Part shown: positions 9,324 to 51,736 of the stretch, one piece after another
Layout: the number at the start of each line of letters is the position of its first letter
How positions within the stretch are numbered: position 1 is the stretch's first letter
Assembly: GCA_958295785.1 (NCBI GenBank)
Contig: OY282377.1
Coordinates: 3,392,385 to 3,456,384, forward strand
DNA from: an uncultured Latescibacterota bacterium
GTDB lineage: Bacteria > Latescibacterota > UBA2968
Direction of reading: 5' to 3'
DNA length: 64,000 bases
Program-made: the position numbers and the translations under genes
The notes under the pieces: generated by a model
What the model was told of the DNA's origin: nothing
Databases searched by the model: none
What the model saw: only the letters and a program-made list of their open reading frames with translations

Positions 9324-9614
9324 ATGCCGTTCACTGTCTCTCAAAGTGAAATTGAGCGCGTCGCCGCGGAAAAGGGCCGCGCACTCGCGGTACGCACCTT
9401 TCAACCGGGCGCGATATCTGTCACCCTCATCGCAAAAACAGAATGCGCCGCCTTTCGGCAATATCAACAAATCGGCTTTTTTTGAATCCTCCTGCCGCAG
9501 CACCACACGCCGTTTCCCTACCGCTTGCACATCACCTATCCAGATGGTCATGATATGACCATCGTCGATCCCCATTCCTTCCCCCCCGTTTTGGGCAGTG
9601 GCGCGAGTAAATAA
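9324..9614 (+). pseudogene. N-terminal relic of glycogen branching enzyme (glgB), with an in-frame stop
   Basis: The frame from ATG 9324 gives the start of a GlgB N-terminal (CBM48-like) domain: AVRTFQPGAISVTLI, then QQIGFF, a TGA at 9483, and in the same frame ILLPQHHTPFPYRLHITYPDG and IVDPHSFPPVLG. These parts line up with the conserved VRAFLPGA, GLFE, PYRL and DPYRFPPVLG blocks of branching enzymes. Everything after about residue 90 is missing, and the frame closes at the border of the repeat element at 9614. The nonsense codon plus truncation make it non-functional. It begins nine bases after the dehydrogenase stop. Confidence 0.75.
9570..9613. repeat. 44-bp perfect direct repeat, left copy
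   Basis: Bases 9570-9613 are identical to 9993-10036 (CCCCATTCC ... GCGAGTAAATA). The two copies flank the element at 9614-9992, like a very long target duplication. Confidence 0.9.
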
Positions 9615-9992
9615 ATTGATTTTCTGTTGACCTAATGTGATGCGATATGCGACCCGCAAATGATTCTCTTGACGTTACACAGTCATTCAGAGAAGCCATG
9701 GCAACCAGGCCATCCCAAAAGACCATCAGATAAAGCCATCACGCACAGCGCGCAAGGCCGTCTCGCAACCCACCTCCCTCTTGCAATTTCCTTCGCAGGC
9801 CAGCGCATGTCGTCCTGTTACAAAAGCACTTTGCGCTGTGCAAGCCTCTCGGCGCATGAGAGCGGCATTTTTTGCCTACTTTTTTTGCTGTTGAAAAAAA
9901 GTAGGTCGCCGCACGCCGTAGGCACAGGCGCAGCCAACGCATCGAAGGCAACCAACGAGGAGTTAGGACCAAACGCTTTACGTAAGTCTGTT
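9614..9992 (+). repeat. Dispersed element of about 0.4 kb with internal hairpin, copy A
   Basis: Copy A starts AATTGATTTTCTGTTG and ends near TCTGTT. A closely similar copy lies inverted at 26104-26518, and a 43-bp fragment at 41413-41455. It contains the hairpin CCTAC-T7 / A7-GTAGG (9875-9905). No conserved reading frame is shared between copies, so it is non-coding. It fills the gap 9614-10041. Confidence 0.85.
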
Positions 9993-10036
9993 CCCCATTC
10001 CTTCCCCCCCGTTTTGGGCAGTGGCGCGAGTAAATA
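9993..10036. repeat. 44-bp perfect direct repeat, right copy
   Basis: Identical to 9570-9613. It ends five bases before the start of the threonine synthase gene. Confidence 0.9.
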
Positions 10037-10041
10037 CCCTT

Positions 10042-11112
10042 ATGTTCTTTTTGACCTGCCAAATCTGCAAAAAGACCTATGCCCCCAACACCTTGCAATG
10101 GTGCTGTTCATGCGGCGGACTTTTTGACCTCGTCTTTGAGGGCGAACTACGTGTTGACGCGCTTGCTGACCGACCGCCCACGCTGTGGCGTTACCGAGAG
10201 GCGATCCCCATTGCGGACGACGCCCATATCGCGAGCTTTGACGAGGGATTCACCCCGCTGACGCCCGTCACCATTGCGGGCAAATCCCTCCTCGTCAAGC
10301 AGGATCACCTGTTTCCGTCTGGCTCGTACAAAGACCGCGGCGCGACCGTTTTGATCAGCCAGGCAAAGGCGTTGGGTGTTCAACACATGGTCGAGGATTC
10401 ATCGGGCAATGCGGGCGCGGCAATCGCGGCTTATGCAGCGCGTGCGGGGATTGCCTGCGACATCTACGTTCCCGACAGCACGTCGCCGGCAAAACTCGCG
10501 CAAATTCAAAGCTATGGGGCACGGCTTTACAAAATCCCCGGCGCACGCGAAGACACAGCGCGTGCGGTTCAGGGCGCGGCGCGAAAGCATTTTTACGCAA
10601 GCCATGTTTGGAACCCCTTTTTCTTTCACGGCACCAAAACCCTTGCGTACGAAATCTGGGAACAACGCGGTTTCAACGCGCCGGATACGCTCATCATCCC
10701 AACGGGCAATGGCACGCTGTTGATCGGTGCGTACATCGGATTTACAGACTTGCTCAGGCAAAACCTGATCGACCACCTGCCCAAACTCATCGCGGTTCAA
10801 TCCGCCAATTGCGCCCCGCTGATGCCCAACTGGCACGGAAACCCATCCGAGACCATAGCCGAAGGCATTGCCATCGCCGAACCCGCCCGCGCCGCGCAGA
10901 TGCTCAGGTACATTGACCAAACAGGGGGCGATGTGCTCACAGTCGAAGACGATGAAACGCGCCACGCCCAAAAACAGATGGCCGAGATGGGCTTTTACAT
11001 CGAACCCACTTCGGCCACGGCCATTGCAGCTTATATGAAATACCCGGCTCAAAATGACGAGGTCGCAGTCGCCCCCCTCACCGGGCACGGGCTAAAATCT
11101 GGAAAAAAATAA
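10042..11112 (+). CDS. thrC: Threonine synthase-like PLP enzyme
   Basis: A 356-residue protein beginning MFFLTCQICKKTYAP with a zinc-ribbon-like pair of Cys clusters (CQIC and CCSCGG), as in threonine synthases. The PLP lysine is in the GSYKDRGA motif. It is followed by the EDSSGNAGAA loop, and GNGTLL provides the glycine-rich phosphate-binding loop. Threonine synthase converts O-phosphohomoserine to threonine in the cytoplasm. Related fold-type II enzymes (for example diaminopropionate ammonia-lyase) are possible but lack the N-terminal Cys motif. The ATG at 10042 is chosen because it starts directly with the Cys motif; the earlier in-frame start lies in the repeat. The insertion of element A just upstream may have changed its promoter. 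Confidence 0.85.
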   Translation: MFFLTCQICKKTYAPNTLQWCCSCGGLFDLVFEGELRVDALADRPPTLWRYREAIPIADDAHIASFDEGFTPLTPVTIAGKSLLVKQDHLFPSGSYKDRGATVLISQAKALGVQHMVEDSSGNAGAAIAAYAARAGIACDIYVPDSTSPAKLAQIQSYGARLYKIPGAREDTARAVQGAARKHFYASHVWNPFFFHGTKTLAYEIWEQRGFNAPDTLIIPTGNGTLLIGAYIGFTDLLRQNLIDHLPKLIAVQSANCAPLMPNWHGNPSETIAEGIAIAEPARAAQMLRYIDQTGGDVLTVEDDETRHAQKQMAEMGFYIEPTSATAIAAYMKYPAQNDEVAVAPLTGHGLKSGKK

Positions 11113-21397: not shown

Positions 21398-21946
21398 CTA
21401 TCTCGCTGGCGTCTCCTCCTCGGTGACCAGTGGTTGGTCAACAAGGGGACGGGTAGCAGGACGACTTTCCTCCCTACGGGGAACGGAACGAGGAGCTTCG
21501 GCGGCGGTGTGCTTTCTGTTCCAATACCAGTTCATCCCCACATTGCCCAGAAAAAGCGTGACGATGATCCCGACAAGCCACCGAAATGAGGTATTCATTT
21601 CACTTCTCAGGGTATTTATTTCCCCTCTCATGATATTCATTTCCCCTCTCATGATATTCATTTCCCCTCTCATGGTATTCATTTCACTTCTCGTAATATT
21701 CATTTCCCCTCTCATTTCACTTCTCGTAATATTCATTTCCTCCCTCATTTCACTTCTCAGAGCCTCCAAACGCTTTAACGTCTCGCGTTGATCTTGCTCA
21801 ATATTGGTCAACCGCTTGTCAATCTGCTCGACAATCCCTTCTAATCTGCCCACTCTGCTCTCTAAACTGCCGCGCGGTTTTTCCGTTTGGGCATTGGCTG
21901 CGGGTATCCATGCAAACGCGAATAACAGGGGGATGACATATTTCAT
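21398..21946 (-). CDS. Exported coiled-coil protein with heptad repeats and a membrane anchor
   Basis: A 182-residue protein with a signal peptide (MKYVIPLLFAFAWIPAANA), then a coiled coil (RVGRLEGIVEQIDKRL...). Next come about seven near-identical seven-residue units (MRGEMNI / TRSEMNT), a membrane helix (WLVGIIVTLFLGNVGMNWYW) and a Pro- and Arg-rich tail. Similar Bdr-like or DUF1640-like proteins have this layout. The heptads would form an extended parallel coiled coil; the function is unknown. The DNA repeat is 21 bp and may change copy number. Confidence 0.8.
   Translation of the reverse strand: MKYVIPLLFAFAWIPAANAQTEKPRGSLESRVGRLEGIVEQIDKRLTNIEQDQRETLKRLEALRSEMREEMNITRSEMRGEMNITRSEMNTMRGEMNIMRGEMNIMRGEINTLRSEMNTSFRWLVGIIVTLFLGNVGMNWYWNRKHTAAEAPRSVPRREESRPATRPLVDQPLVTEEETPAR
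21595..21745. repeat. 21-bp tandem repeat within the coiled-coil gene
   Basis: Near-identical units of the form ATTTC-CCTCTCATGATATTC are repeated about seven times. Each encodes one heptad, so copy changes keep the frame. Confidence 0.85.
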
Positions 21947-26025: not shown

Positions 26026-26103
26026 CGCGCACCTCGCCGAGTAAATTGTCATACCAAATTGATTTTTATTTTTCCGTATCCTGCCTCCCATCAGGGAGGA
26101 ATG

Positions 26104-26518
26104 AGGAGTGGGGAACAGACGTTCCTCAGAGATCATGCGTTGCTTGTCTCAAGCGTTTGGTTCTGCCTCCGCGTGGGGTGCCTTCGATGCGTTGGCTACG
26201 CCTGTGCCTACGGCGTGCGGCGACTTCCTTTTTTTTAACAGCAAAAAAAAGGAAGCAAAAAATGCCGCTCTCAAACGCCGAGGGGCTTGCAACAGCGCAA
26301 ATCGCTTTTGTAATAGGACGACATGCGTTGGCCTGCAAGGTGGGTTGCAAGAGGGAGGTTGGTTGCGAGACGGACTTGCGCGCTGTGCGCGATGGCTTTG
26401 TCTGATGGTCTTTTGGGATGGCCTGGTTGCCATGGCTTATTTGACGTACTGCGTAACGTCAAGGGAATCATTTGCGGGTCGCATATCGCATCACATCAGG
26501 GCAACAGAAAATCAATTT
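26104..26518 (-). repeat. Dispersed element of about 0.4 kb with internal hairpin, copy B
   Basis: Inverted, closely similar copy of 9614-9992, ending ATCAATTT at 26518. Its hairpin (CTTCC-T8 / A8-GGAAG, 26224-26255) has different stem bases from copy A but pairs fully. It fills most of the 524-bp gap 26026-26549; no gene is seen there. Confidence 0.85.
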
Positions 26519-26549
26519 AGTACAAAGGGGATCGGTGATGGGCATATCG

Positions 26550-41065: not shown

Positions 41066-41700
41066 AATTTCGTGAGGATACCGCACGGGGCGGTCGCTGT
41101 TTTTTTTCATAATCAAAAGAGTGGCTTGAAGTTTGGCGAGGGGTTGTAATTAACAAAAGATATTTTGGGATGTCAAGCCCGATGTGTGTGAATTTTCCCA
41201 TTGCCCGCGCCTGTGCAGGGGCTTCCTGCACGGTGTCTGGCCGCCGACCAATTGACGGAGAGGCCATGAGGCGCGCCTGTTGTTCGGTCAAATTTGTTCC
41301 TTGCATCTGGCGACAAACCGAGGTATTTTCAAATGAGAAAACGAGGTCGTTCATCTTCCACACGCTGCTGATAAAAGAAGTGTGATAACGCGAGTAATTT
41401 GAGCGTTTGGCAGCGCACGCCGTAGGCATCAACGCATCAAAGGCAACAAACGAGGGATTATCGACATCAGCTTTTGAAAAGCATCGCAAAACGGCTTAAA
41501 GGCGCGTAACTTCAGGTCGTAAATCGAGGAGTAGGGATGGGCGACGGCTGATTGCCTCTTGTATCTTTGGGCGAGCACGGGGGCATCGCCCCTACACACG
41601 GCTCGCCTTTTGTGCCTTTGAACGGGCTGTCGCTCGTTGTACCCCGCTCGTGTTTTTTGTGGCTAAAAACTGACATCTTACCTCTCGCGGAGAATCCCCC
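41066..41700. other. Intergenic region with repeats, no convincing gene
   Basis: This 635-bp stretch has short open frames only. It holds a 43-bp fragment of the 0.4-kb element family (41413-41455, with GCACGCCGTAGGCATC...AACGCATC) and the 27-bp repeat at 41569. The dipeptide permease operon starts at its end; no good promoter was found. Confidence 0.6.
41569..41595 (+). repeat. Dispersed 27-bp palindromic repeat, copy 6
   Basis: GGGCGAGCACGGGGGC-ATC-GCCCCTAC, the consensus form. Confidence 0.85.
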
Positions 41701-48184: not shown

Positions 48185-51100
48185 CTATCCGTTAACCTCC
48201 TCCTCGATTTGCTCGCGGATATCTGCGGCCACCTCGAGCACTTCTGCCGGCGCACGAACCGCCTCGCCTGTTCGCTGGCGCAAGGCGATAATGAGCGGCA
48301 CTAAAGTAGCGGCTTTCTCTGTGTCCTCCGCCAGAATCTCGACGAGATTGCGCTCCGAAGTTCCGCTTGCGATCAAGTTGATCACGCGCCCCATCATCTC
48401 GCGCATCATCGTTTCATTGCCCGGGGCGAACGCGGCATACATCGAGCGGAACGCATCCATGGCGGCAGGGCGTTTCTCTTGAACGAGCAGTGCCTTCGTT
48501 CTCATCCACCGCGCCCGCCATTTGAAAGCAACTTCATCGTCGCCAATCAAACCACCGAACCTGCGTTCGAGTTCGTCGCTCATATTCAGAGCCTCTTCGC
48601 CGAGACCGAGTTGGATTTGTGTCTCACCCTTGAAAGACAATGCGCTAGCGATCACTTCTTGAAGTTCTGGCGCGGTGCTATTTCCAAAACGCTTGAGCAC
48701 TTCGTCGTAGAGGGCAACCGCCGCCTCGAAATCCCCCCGTTCCCCGCACTCAATTCCCTTGTTGAACAATGCAGAGGCGACCTGTTCTTGAAGTTCTGGC
48801 CTGTCGCTATCGCCAAAACGCTTGACCACTTCGTCGTAGAGCGCGATTTCTGTCTCGAAATCCCCGCGTTGCCAGCATGCAATTCCCTTGTTGAACAATG
48901 CAGAGGCGACCCATTCTTGAAGTTCTGGCCTGTCGCTATCGCCAAAACGCTTGATCACCTCATCCCAAAGCGTGACCGCCGCCTCGAAATCCCCTTGTTT
49001 CCCGCACGCAATTCCCTTGACAAACAACGCCTTGGCGACCCGTTCTTGAAGTTCTGGCCTGTCGCTATCGCCAAAGCGTTTGACCACCTCATCGTAGAGG
49101 GCAACCGCCGCCTCGAAATCCCCTCGTTCTCCGCACGCAAGTCCCTTGTTGAACAATGCAGAGGCGACCCATTCTTGAAGTTCTGGCCTGTCGCTATCGC
49201 CAAAACGCTTGACCACCTCATCGTAGAGGGCAACCGCCGCCTCGAAATCCCCTCGTTCTCCGCACGCAAGTCCCTTGACAAACAACGCCTTGGCGACCCG
49301 TTCTTGAAGTTCTGGCCTGTCGCTATCGCCAAAGCGTTTGACCACCTCATCGTAGAGGGCAACCGCCGCCTCGAAATCCCCTCGTTCTCCGCACGCAAGT
49401 CCCTTGACAAACAACGCCTTGGCGACCCGTTCTTGAAGTTCTGGCGCGGTGCTATCGCCAAAGCGTTTGACCAACTCATCGTAGAGCGCGATTTCTGCCT
49501 CAAAATCCCCTCGTTCTCCGCACGCAAGTCCCTTGACAAACAACGCCTGGGCGACCTGTTCTTGAAGTTCTGGCCTGTCGCTATCGCCAAAACGCTTGAC
49601 CAACTCATCGTAGAGCGCGATTTCTGTCTCAAAATCCCCTCGTTCCCCGCACACAATTCCCTTGTTGACCAACGCCTTGGCGACCCGTTCTTGAAGTTCT
49701 GGCCTGTCGCTATCGCCAAAACGCTTGACCAACTCGTCGTAGAGCGCGATTTCTGTCTCAAAATCCCCTCGTTCCCCGCACACAATTCCCTTGTTGACCA
49801 ACGCCTTGGCGACCCGTTCTTGAAGTTCTGGCCTGTCGCTATCGCCAAAACGCTTGACCAACTCGTCGTAGAGCGCGATTTCTGTCTCGAAATCCCCTTG
49901 TTCCCCGCATACAATTCCCTTGTTGACCAACGCCTTGGCGACCCATTCTTGAAGTTCTGGCGTGGTGCTATCGTCAAAACGCTTGACCAACTCGTCGTAG
50001 AGCGCGATTTCTGTCTCAAAATCCCCTCGTTCCCCGCACACAATTCCCTTGTTGAACAATGCATGGGCGACCCATTCTTGAAGTTCTGGCGTGGTGCTAT
50101 CGTCAAAACGCTTGACCAACTCGTCGTAGAGCGCGATTTCTGTCTCAAAATCCCCTCGTTCCCCGCACACAATTCCCTTGTTGACCAACGCCTTGGCGAC
50201 CCGTTCTTGAAGTTCTGGCGCGGTGCTATTTCCAAAACGCTTGATCACCTCATCCCAAAGCGCGACCGCACTCTGAGAAGCGAAAGAATCGTTTGCGCCC
50301 TCGATAACTTTCTCGAAATCCCCCTCGTCGAATGCTATCGCGATCTCATCGGCAAGTCGTTGGGCCTCCCCGTCGTCGAGCGTCGCAGCCCGTTTGGATT
50401 CCAGCTCAATACCTGCCCGTCTCATGCCGAAAAAGAAATGCTCAATTTGCGGCAGTTCGACTATGGCCCGTTCAATTCCCTCGCGAATGGCTGGCGACTG
50501 CGCCGCCTCTGCAATCAACTTGCCGGACATCTCCGCCAGTTCGTCGCTGGTGTAGAACACGGCCATAAAGTGAATCAAGTCTCGCACGACAGCCGCTTCG
50601 TCGCGTTCGCGCCGCAACTTGTAGTAGATGCTGTAGAGGCGTTCTGCCGCAGAGTACTGCCGCTTCCGGCTGTTGCCTTCCACGATGACCGCGCCCCGGT
50701 TGACGAGCCTTCCGAGCAGGGTCGATACCTTTCGGATCTCCATGCGGGATCGCGCTGCAATTTCGCTGGTGCTCGACGGTTGCCACAGGTCGATCACAGC
50801 GAGATAGACGCGGCGCTCGGTCTTTGCGAAACCTTGCAGATGGGCGCGGAAATACTCGGTGTGATCGTCGATCAGCGTTACCAACTCTTCCATCAACTGG
50901 CGCAGGGAACGGTGCCGGGCGAACTCGGCGACAATGACCAAGAGGCGGGGATTGCCGCCGGTCAGGATCTGAAGCGGCCTAATCGTGCGCGTGCTCACCG
51001 CGTCGCCGCTGACCATTTGCCACAGGCATTGGCACTCCTCGGTATCCAAGCGTTCCAACCCGACTATTCGGAATAATTCGAAGAACGGCTGTTCCACATC

Positions 51101-51718
51101 GTCCAGCCCTTCAAAACGACTGGTGGCCGTGGCGAGCAACACGATTTGGGGTTCTGTCTGCAATACCTTGCGGAGCTTCCAGCCGAAATGGCTGTCCACA
51201 TCAGAGCACAGATCTTGCAGGTTCTCGACCATGAGGACGAGTTGCTTTTCCAGCCGATCCGCCGTTTCCAAGACCGCGACGAGGGCGCGTTCTTCGAATT
51301 CCCTGCCGCGCCATTGGCTGGCTAAGTCGGCGTGCGTGGTTCGCAAGTCCCGGGCAATATCGGGATGGCTGTTGGCGATCTCCCCGGCGAGATAGAACAG
51401 CGCCTCGAGCCAGAAGTCGGCGGCATCAAATATCTCATGGCTCTCTTCCATGAACCGCACGGGCAACAGCCGCCGGGCGAGCGCGTCATCGGTGCGTATC
51501 TCCGCAGCGGCACGCGCCAACAGCATGGTCTTCCCCCGGCCGCGAGGGCCGACGAGCAAGACGTGTTGGCACGATGGCGCACCGATGTTTTCTCGGAGAA
51601 CCTCCATCGCGATGCCGAACTCGCGTTTCCTGACGACGAACTGTCTTATTACTTCTTCATCGGTCTGAAACGTCCCCGGATTGAACTTGCGGATCGTCCG
51701 CTCAAGCGGTTTGTTCAT
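48185..51718 (-). CDS. STAND-like NTPase with 13 TPR-like 43-residue repeats
   Basis: A 1177-residue protein. The ATG at 51718 (MNKPLERTIRKF) has GAGGAG upstream. Residues 40 to about 300 are an ATPase domain with Walker A VGPRGRGKTML (57-64 region), a Walker-B-like strand QLVLMVENLQDL and a later IVLLATATSRF. A winged-helix-like region follows (STSEIAARSRMEIRKVSTLLGRLVNRGAV). Thirteen repeats of 43 residues then fill 48569-50245, with consensus VKRFGDSDRPELQERVAKAL...NKG..CGERGDFE.EIALYDEL, a TPR-like two-helix pattern. A helical C-terminal region ends the chain. This order (NTPase, winged helix, superhelical repeats) is that of STAND sensors. The gene lies between hsdM and hsdS remnants, downstream of a second ATPase in one operon. 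No effector domain is visible. Confidence 0.83.
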   Translation of the reverse strand: MNKPLERTIRKFNPGTFQTDEEVIRQFVVRKREFGIAMEVLRENIGAPSCQHVLLVGPRGRGKTMLLARAAAEIRTDDALARRLLPVRFMEESHEIFDAADFWLEALFYLAGEIANSHPDIARDLRTTHADLASQWRGREFEERALVAVLETADRLEKQLVLMVENLQDLCSDVDSHFGWKLRKVLQTEPQIVLLATATSRFEGLDDVEQPFFELFRIVGLERLDTEECQCLWQMVSGDAVSTRTIRPLQILTGGNPRLLVIVAEFARHRSLRQLMEELVTLIDDHTEYFRAHLQGFAKTERRVYLAVIDLWQPSSTSEIAARSRMEIRKVSTLLGRLVNRGAVIVEGNSRKRQYSAAERLYSIYYKLRRERDEAAVVRDLIHFMAVFYTSDELAEMSGKLIAEAAQSPAIREGIERAIVELPQIEHFFFGMRRAGIELESKRAATLDDGEAQRLADEIAIAFDEGDFEKVIEGANDSFASQSAVALWDEVIKRFGNSTAPELQERVAKALVNKGIVCGERGDFETEIALYDELVKRFDDSTTPELQEWVAHALFNKGIVCGERGDFETEIALYDELVKRFDDSTTPELQEWVAKALVNKGIVCGEQGDFETEIALYDELVKRFGDSDRPELQERVAKALVNKGIVCGERGDFETEIALYDELVKRFGDSDRPELQERVAKALVNKGIVCGERGDFETEIALYDELVKRFGDSDRPELQEQVAQALFVKGLACGERGDFEAEIALYDELVKRFGDSTAPELQERVAKALFVKGLACGERGDFEAAVALYDEVVKRFGDSDRPELQERVAKALFVKGLACGERGDFEAAVALYDEVVKRFGDSDRPELQEWVASALFNKGLACGERGDFEAAVALYDEVVKRFGDSDRPELQERVAKALFVKGIACGKQGDFEAAVTLWDEVIKRFGDSDRPELQEWVASALFNKGIACWQRGDFETEIALYDEVVKRFGDSDRPELQEQVASALFNKGIECGERGDFEAAVALYDEVLKRFGNSTAPELQEVIASALSFKGETQIQLGLGEEALNMSDELERRFGGLIGDDEVAFKWRARWMRTKALLVQEKRPAAMDAFRSMYAAFAPGNETMMREMMGRVINLIASGTSERNLVEILAEDTEKAATLVPLIIALRQRTGEAVRAPAEVLEVAADIREQIEEEVNG
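48569..50245 (-). repeat. 13 tandem 129-bp repeats inside the STAND-like gene
   Basis: Each unit is exactly 129 bp (43 codons). Twelve are nearly identical at DNA level and the most C-terminal one has diverged. The phase was checked at the start of unit 1 (50245) and unit 12 (48826). Confidence 0.92.
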
Positions 51719-51736
51719 TGGGTATCTCCTCAATTC

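Follow-up and report, generated by a model that had tools for sequence, protein, structure and literature searches.

The two similar repeats in the window (the whole 64,000-nucleotide stretch of DNA analysed here, which comes from one 5.66-Mb contig of a genome read as Latescibacterota) belong to a MITE-like element that has about 150 copies in the window genome, and inside this element lies a non-coding module of about 180 nt, which, on comparison with related genomes, appears to be older than the MITE and separate from it. With moderate confidence, we favour the explanation that the MITE is moved in trans and carries an older module acting as an RNA, which with a pseudoknot and a triple helix would shape or protect 3′ ends. 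The combination of a dispersed structured repeat, a MITE carrier and a predicted triple helix appears to be new, and no Rfam family fits the element: at the gathering threshold, Rfam reported only tRNAs in the window and seven loci, permissive thresholds gave only chance-like matches well below gathering for copy A and seven loci, and no description of the element was found in the open-licence literature.

A MITE-like element in about 150 copies

The initial annotation had described an element at 9614–9992 (copy A) and a similar inverted copy (B), and this likeness was confirmed, with arms of 228 and 99 nt at 90% and of 62 nt at 82%. The extents of the copies had to be revised, because B occupies 26052–26522, its right end lying 52 bp beyond the 26104 proposed earlier, and A is a broken copy that has lost both terminal repeats. 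The additional piece at 41413 is real, but it is short, has no hairpin and was not reported by the module model. The features of these pieces are as follows, S2 being the hairpin of the initial annotation.

9569..9613, plus strand: left member of an exact 45-bp direct repeat that lies on either side of A
9614..9998, plus strand: copy A, a MITE without TACC at its left end and without the right terminal repeat
9739..9916, plus strand: structured module in A, full-length match to covariance model R1 (152.6 bits)
9743..9751, plus strand: 5′ strand of P1, a long-range stem, in A (GCACAGCGC)
9833..9841, plus strand: 3′ strand of P1 in A (GCGCTGTGC)
9844..9866, plus strand: P2 hairpin in A, followed by a T-tract; terminator-like
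9862..9867, plus strand: 5′ strand of a possible pseudoknot stem S1 in A (GCGGCA), overlapping the foot of P2
9868..9873, plus strand: L1 in A (TTTTTT), predicted third strand of a triple helix
9874..9886, plus strand: 5′ arm of S2 in A (GCCTACTTTTTTT)
9887..9892, plus strand: hairpin loop in A (GCTGTT), with the preceding T a possible 3′ strand of S1
9894..9905, plus strand: 3′ arm of S2 in A (AAAAAAAGTAGG)
9906..9916, plus strand: foot in A (TCGCCGCACGC; TCGCCGAAGGC in most relatives)
9992..10036, plus strand: right member of the exact 45-bp direct repeat on either side of A
26052..26522, minus strand: copy B, a complete MITE of 471 bp
26508..26522, minus strand: left terminal inverted repeat of B (TACTAAATTGATTTT)
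26052..26067, minus strand: right terminal inverted repeat of B (AAAAATCAATTTGGTA)
26213..26392, minus strand: structured module in B, full-length match to R1 (170.1 bits)
26264..26286, minus strand: P2 hairpin in B
26257..26262, minus strand: L1 tract in B (TTTTTT)
26243..26256, minus strand: 5′ arm of S2 in B (GCTTCCTTTTTTTT)
26224..26236, minus strand: 3′ arm of S2 in B (AAAAAAAAGGAAG)
41413..41456, plus strand: short fragment with 76% likeness, over 37 nt, to the sequence that follows the foot on its 3′ side

In the window genome, a pattern for the left end gave 151 matches with at most two mismatches and its reversed control gave none, while a BLAST search with A scored at least 40 matches of 86–100% identity from 271 candidates; given these matches and the left-end count against its control, a chance origin of the repeat is excluded. 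The inverted ends are TACCAAATTG-like, with terminal inverted repeats TACYAAATTG and CAAATTGGTA. The median length is 465 bp (range 165–523 bp) over the 59 of 90 fetched loci in which both ends lie within the allowed span of about 560 bp, so that these values describe the shorter spans; a separate reading of the copies revealed three longer end-to-end spans, one of which is a nested insertion. The 3-bp TNA target duplication was seen as identical flanks in 41 of the 59 copies (TAA 21, TTA 18 and TCA 2), compared with a shuffled mean of 20.3, and 0 of 10000 shuffles reached 41. B itself has no such duplication, its 3-bp flanks being different (TTG/TGA). Duplication of a TNA triplet would fit an IS5/IS1031- or PIF/Harbinger-like transposase. 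At one locus, the filled and unfilled sites differ by more than the element, and therefore the empty-site comparison gave no clean element boundary.

The MITE is short and carries no transposase gene, and there is no coding signal in its module. The transposase families looked for in the window genome were DDE_Tnp_1 (PF01609) and Y1. Among the best 30 of 150 scored DDE_Tnp_1 matches, no transposase was framed by both MITE ends; end-like sequences occur near several of these 30 loci, never as a framing pair. At L364, L367 and L372, one MITE-like end (TACCCATTTGATTTT) lies about 480 bp from the transposase domain, has no partner end and directly abuts another repeat (AAGAAGCCCTAACA), and these loci are possibly a composite or partner element. 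L088 (window genome 945369–948669), which measures 1530 bp end to end, was considered as an autonomous partner and rejected, since it is a MITE with a nested insertion sequence; the latter has a 353-aa frame, sits in the hairpin loop of the MITE copy and is presumably IS701-like, judging by its ends. Insertion sequences are very abundant in the window genome (G000), with at least 150 DDE_Tnp_1 matches scored from 174 candidates.

Several other repeats were observed. A subtype of the MITE (L061, L062, L065 and others) has an extra stretch with CAGTTGTACCCCGCTCG before the hairpin, and similar words occur at window 41636 and in the relative L046. Another dispersed, GC-rich repeat, around GGGCGAGCACGGGGGCATCGCCCCTAC, lies at window 487, 6931, 15971, 30030, 41558, 47222 and 47322, and also in the flanks of several MITE copies. 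The window further contains an array of 21-bp units (TATTCATTTCCCCTCTCATGA) at 21571–21758 and a 129-bp unit repeated in tandem about 12.5 times (90% matches) at 48498–50345, inside a long reading frame (48185–51733, minus strand) that perhaps encodes a repeat protein.

In its shortness, lack of coding sequence, inverted ends, target duplication and high copy number, the element resembles prokaryotic MITEs as presented in a review, which also describes stem-forming transcripts (PMC10969869). It differs from them in its structured module, which relatives possess without the MITE ends and which shows covariation throughout a class.

The structured module in relatives

All 10 other genomes of the genus contain module matches without the MITE ends. 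In these genomes the query matches only within its positions 56–329, most matches ending at 298, with 66–93% identity, and the flanks differ among the 30 genus loci read; the missing ends and differing flanks together point to a module separate from the MITE ends. Several genus copies have TTATGCACACCCC at their right end, some with a matching GGTGTGCATAA on the left, and some copies have flanks common to different species (for example L034, L037, L038 and L052). Covariance model R1 detected the module in 20 of 64 phylum genomes (window genome included) and 7 of 24 genera, all belonging to one class, with 41 matches in G035 and 40 in G028 (42 candidates scored).

Reading frames can be drawn through copies (9660–10127 in the window), as would be the case if the module were a short gene and its conserved strings codons. 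We regard this as extremely improbable and rejected it: in the 27 relatives examined, no frame is stop-free in more than 11, the synonymous share is 0.26–0.40 in all six frames, and there is no codon periodicity, so no frame stands out. The earlier statement that A and B share no reading frame thus holds for the module, every frame having stops in most of these relatives. There is also no general gene-context rule. With genes called by simple ORF picks, 8 of 20 face the element in the genus and 11 of 17 in other class members; in Oscillibacter, the foot-side gene faces the element in 13 of 19 parsed loci, and a frame of at least 170 codons ends 10–44 nt before the foot at 15 of 35 pattern matches.

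The outer stems are indeed CCTAC/GTAGG in A and CTTCC/GGAAG in B, a difference that had been interpreted as covariation. Within the window genome, this difference largely reflects two linked haplotypes. Among the 53 copies with readable arms, obtained from 90 loci (the arms are unreadable in the subtype with the inserted stretch), these two forms dominate with 17 and 14 copies, respectively; of 697 column pairs at similar spacing, the two that pair come 2nd and 9th, and the same columns in an unpaired combination come 1st. Moreover, 19 of the 53 hairpins are not fully paired, 14 of them via a GTCGG arm. The initial annotation had named many unpaired stems, or a larger alignment devoid of covariation, as evidence against it; mispaired copies are thus numerous here, but covariation is strong in both larger alignments.

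The first of these, A1, comprises 27 relatives over about 180 nt with a consensus fold (L046, L057 and L058 of the 30 loci being left out). In this alignment 97.5% of the cells are paired, and 12 of 40 pairs changed on both sides versus a shuffled mean of 4.8, with 37 doubly changed cells versus 11.2; sliding the partners abolished the signal. In S2, 6 of 14 pairs are doubly changed and none varies on one side only. Class-wide (38 model-fitted matches), 36 of 40 pairs are doubly changed versus 23.2 in shuffles, including 8 of 9 in P1 and 13 of 14 in S2, with 251 doubly changed cells versus 67.9; the class-wide alignment is fitted to the tested structure itself, and five partial or opposite-strand rows are retained in alignment A2. 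Direct complementarity of P1 exceeded that of shuffled partners in 20 of 23 class copies (19 at 0/200, and L278 at 2/200) and did not in L268, L274 and L246.

Compared with the 19 of 53 in the window genome, the hairpin is not fully paired in 2 of the 27 relatives (Fisher P 0.007, with copies sharing founders). In the window genome, P1 is intact in 52 of 53 copies and P2 is fully paired in 27 of 52, a figure that is partly an artefact of a 3-nt insertion. The looser hairpin gives a weak hint, among copies that share founders, that carriage by the MITE made the hairpin of the module dispensable for its spread.

A predicted pseudoknot and third strand

The initial annotation had seen stem 2 only, to which a long-range stem (P1), a terminator-like stem (P2), a possible pseudoknot and a third-strand tract can now be added. 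P2 and its T-tract have the form of an intrinsic terminator (a GC-rich hairpin and then a U-tract), although this is no commoner than in shuffles. From its sequence, S2 appears to form stem 2 of a triple-helical, H-type pseudoknot, an arrangement that was first noticed by eye; the sequences used to test it were largely those in which it had been noticed.

In 46 of 48 parsed copies, the hairpin loop can form at least 4 of 6 Watson-Crick pairs with the hexamer immediately before the tract, as in GCGGCA/TGCTGC, GCGGCC/GGCTGC, AACGAC/GTCGTT and GCGCCC/GGGCGC, and 29 of 31 distinct combinations pair, compared with 48.3% for swapped and 30.3% for shuffled loops. These numbers come from 51 chosen copies, all outside Oscillibacter and Bacteroidota (27 from the genus, 19 of 20 class loci, 2 of 3 further ones, 2 plasmids and 1 phage; three unparsed), and from an anchored test that was designed after seeing the outcome of a looser search, in which real pairs were not separated from swapped ones (5.47 vs 5.05). 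By group, S1 was found in 20 of 21 class copies and in all 21 parsed genus copies of Latescibacterota. In MAG-78, it was found in 40 of 41 copies (9 distinct, of which 8 pass; shuffled 39%) and was not evident in the looser search; the counts were 8 of 13 copies in Saprospiraceae (2 of 6 distinct) and 7 of 29 in Oscillibacter. These data suggest the full knot in Latescibacterota, leave it uncertain in MAG-78 and do not support it in Oscillibacter or Saprospiraceae. The two folds would compete, since the foot of P2 shares bases with the 5′ strand of S1.

The pyrimidine tract directly before the hairpin matches the 3′ purine arm of the hairpin in parallel (5′ to 3′), and its length and the position of C follow the purine arm. 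The tract/arm combinations are TTCTTTT/AAGAAAA, TTTCTTTTT/AAAGAAAAA, TTCTTT/AAGAAA and TTCTTTTTC/AAGAAAAAG in Latescibacterota, and TCTTTTT/AGAAAAA and TCTTTTC/AGAAAAG in Oscillibacter. Pure T/A tracts fit the parallel and antiparallel orientations equally. Where the arm is interrupted, 10 of 12 copies from the class and all 29 from Oscillibacter have a parallel run of 6 or more in which a C lies opposite the G, and the parallel run was longer than the antiparallel one in, again, 10 of 12 and 29 of 29; the third-strand match fails in L263 and L274. All 15 hand-picked representatives with an interrupted arm match, with runs of 6–9 and a mean of 7.47 versus 5.43 when swapped; for this test 41 copies were chosen, L142 being unparsed and L268, L277 and L200 being parsed to a wrong hairpin yet kept in the means. 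Across all 25 distinct interrupted copies, the value is 7.00 versus 6.10 against partners with a different tract; the copies that could not be parsed number 2 of 23 in the class, 6 of 27 in the genus and 1 of 30 in Oscillibacter. The tract listing also includes spurious and opposite-strand hairpins, and the copies are related, so the counts are not numbers of independent events. Two Burkholderiales plasmid records also match the third-strand pattern. As far as the letters can tell, loop 1 would form a parallel third strand on stem 2. C·G-C triples need protonation.

The non-Watson-Crick cells of S1 comprise 15 G·T and 1 A·C, which points to RNA of this strand. The corresponding counts for the hairpin are 11 to 1 class-wide and 6 to 0 in Oscillibacter; class-wide, P1 (2 to 3) and P2 (2 to 2) are not lopsided. 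The S1 bias argues against another explanation, which we consider unlikely, namely that the structure acts as DNA, either as a REP-like hairpin moved by an HUH/Y1 transposase or as H-DNA, the RNA being incidental. A DNA role would suit a multi-copy, patchy element whose structure is kept in dispersed copies, and mirror-symmetric tracts are also a requirement of H-DNA. REP hairpins are a precedent (PMC3733652, PMC6006769), and these two papers, along with a third (PMC12306157), describe REP elements and RAYT with the same dispersed intergenic hairpins, complementary changes, G-T pairs and occurrence in many phyla. Set against those accounts, however, the module spans about 180 nt with several stems instead of a 20–40 bp palindrome, and has no unpaired GTAG/CGTC tag, its GTAG-like bases being paired and variable. 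Furthermore, all 11 genus genomes carry the module, and 5 of them gave no Y1_Tnp match, nor did 4 of 9 other carriers searched (G030, G031, G033 and G036), whereas Y1_Tnp is present in 7 of 15 non-carriers searched, most of these genomes being incomplete; R1 finds nothing in 17 loci around Y1 genes. Mobilisation by Y1/RAYT is therefore not supported.

Occurrence in other phyla and proposed role

The exact 21-mer formed by the 3′ arm and the foot occurs in at least 101 stretches of genome contigs, where a uniform-composition estimate predicts about 0.2 occurrences. The matches listed include, besides Latescibacterota, Bacteroidetes MAG-78, Saprospiraceae, Saccharicrinis, Parcubacteria, Alysiella and Oscillibacter; most carriers are metagenome bins, in which wrong binning is possible for single matches. 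Two candidates were discarded: a Gemmatimonadota contig (L177), considered as a further phylum, agrees in coordinates and score with a match in the same-genus G009, and L152, considered as a separate occurrence, corresponds to G036. With 150 candidates scored each, R1 gave at least 124 matches in an Oscillibacter genome and at least 76 in MAG-78, resting mostly on the hairpin. Oscillibacter has 29 distinct hairpins of five arm types, none of them broken, and 10 of 31 consensus pairs, those of an upstream hairpin included, change on both sides. The arm and foot pattern, with one mismatch allowed, has 269 matches in the Oscillibacter genome G069 (3.0 Mb) and, in the family of this genome, was found in 24 of 150 genomes, with one match in all for the reversed control. 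Searches of plasmid and phage records, one of which yielded nothing, showed a similar tract and hairpin in two Burkholderiales plasmids and one unverified faecal phage contig. The likeness between phyla may be due to common descent, transfer or convergence.

Convergence of T/A-rich terminators between phyla is also part of another explanation, in which the repeat is an ordinary MITE and its hairpin a terminator or decayed palindrome. The terminator scan of A, which reported only P2 (1 versus a shuffled mean of 0.7), and the fold of A, barely better than shuffles (z −1.44), would agree with this; but the relative L033 folds at z −3.26, covariation lies far above shuffles, third-strand matches are no feature of terminators, and the number of contig stretches with the 21-mer greatly exceeds expectation. 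We thus hold an ordinary MITE to be rather improbable.

The favoured explanation remains that of a MITE carrying an older RNA module. The initial annotation had suggested a structured RNA, a non-autonomous transposable element, or both; 'both' fits best, yet as two things, an amplified MITE and the older structured module carried by it. This explanation builds on the MITE ends, the target duplication, the module, the covarying stems and the matching third-strand tract, from which we infer transcription, the triple helix, its function and capture. A transposase duplicating a TNA triplet would move the 0.4-kb MITE in trans, and the MITE would carry internally one lineage of an older element, which is dispersed, non-coding and about 180 nt long and would spread by capture in different carriers, here the MITE. 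The module most probably acts as an RNA of this strand, in which the long-range stem P1 would be followed by the GC-rich hairpin P2 with its U-tract, resembling a terminator, and then by the H-type pseudoknot. In this knot, S2 would be stem 2, its loop would form S1 with the bases that directly precede the U-tract, and this tract would lie in the major groove of stem 2 as the third strand, forming U·A-U and C·G-C triples. The likely job would be to shape or protect RNA 3′ ends: a free U-tract would allow termination at P2, while read-through would give a nuclease-resistant triple helix.

Triple-helix pseudoknots such as those of telomerase RNA, SAM-II and preQ1-II are H-type knots in which a U-rich loop 1 faces an A-rich stem 2. 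The predicted H-type layout of the module is alike, but it is known from sequence, lies in a dispersed repeat and has C/G interruptions that are matched between lineages. ENE elements of eukaryotic viral and transposon RNAs also join U-rich and A-rich strands in a triple helix, capturing a poly(A) tail. The module would likewise place a U-rich/A-rich triple helix in the RNA of a transposable element; unlike in ENE elements, all of its strands would be internal, and the host is bacterial.

A broader proposal, which we advance tentatively and find doubtful as a whole, is that of an RNA family spanning several phyla and absent from Rfam, which would be built round a pyrimidine-motif triple helix (with the full pseudoknot at least in Latescibacterota) and repeatedly captured by unrelated DNA transposons, its U-tract switching between the tail of a terminator and the third strand in a triple helix that protects the RNA. 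The usual view of dispersed repeats in bacteria is that they are inert or function as DNA; in this repeat, distant bacteria show joint changes of the Watson-Crick stems and of a candidate Hoogsteen third strand. If this is true, the module would be a so far undescribed RNA element, of which at least one Oscillibacter genome contains hundreds of copies, and its copies would provide a large set of natural variants for testing the rules of U·A-U and C·G-C triples.
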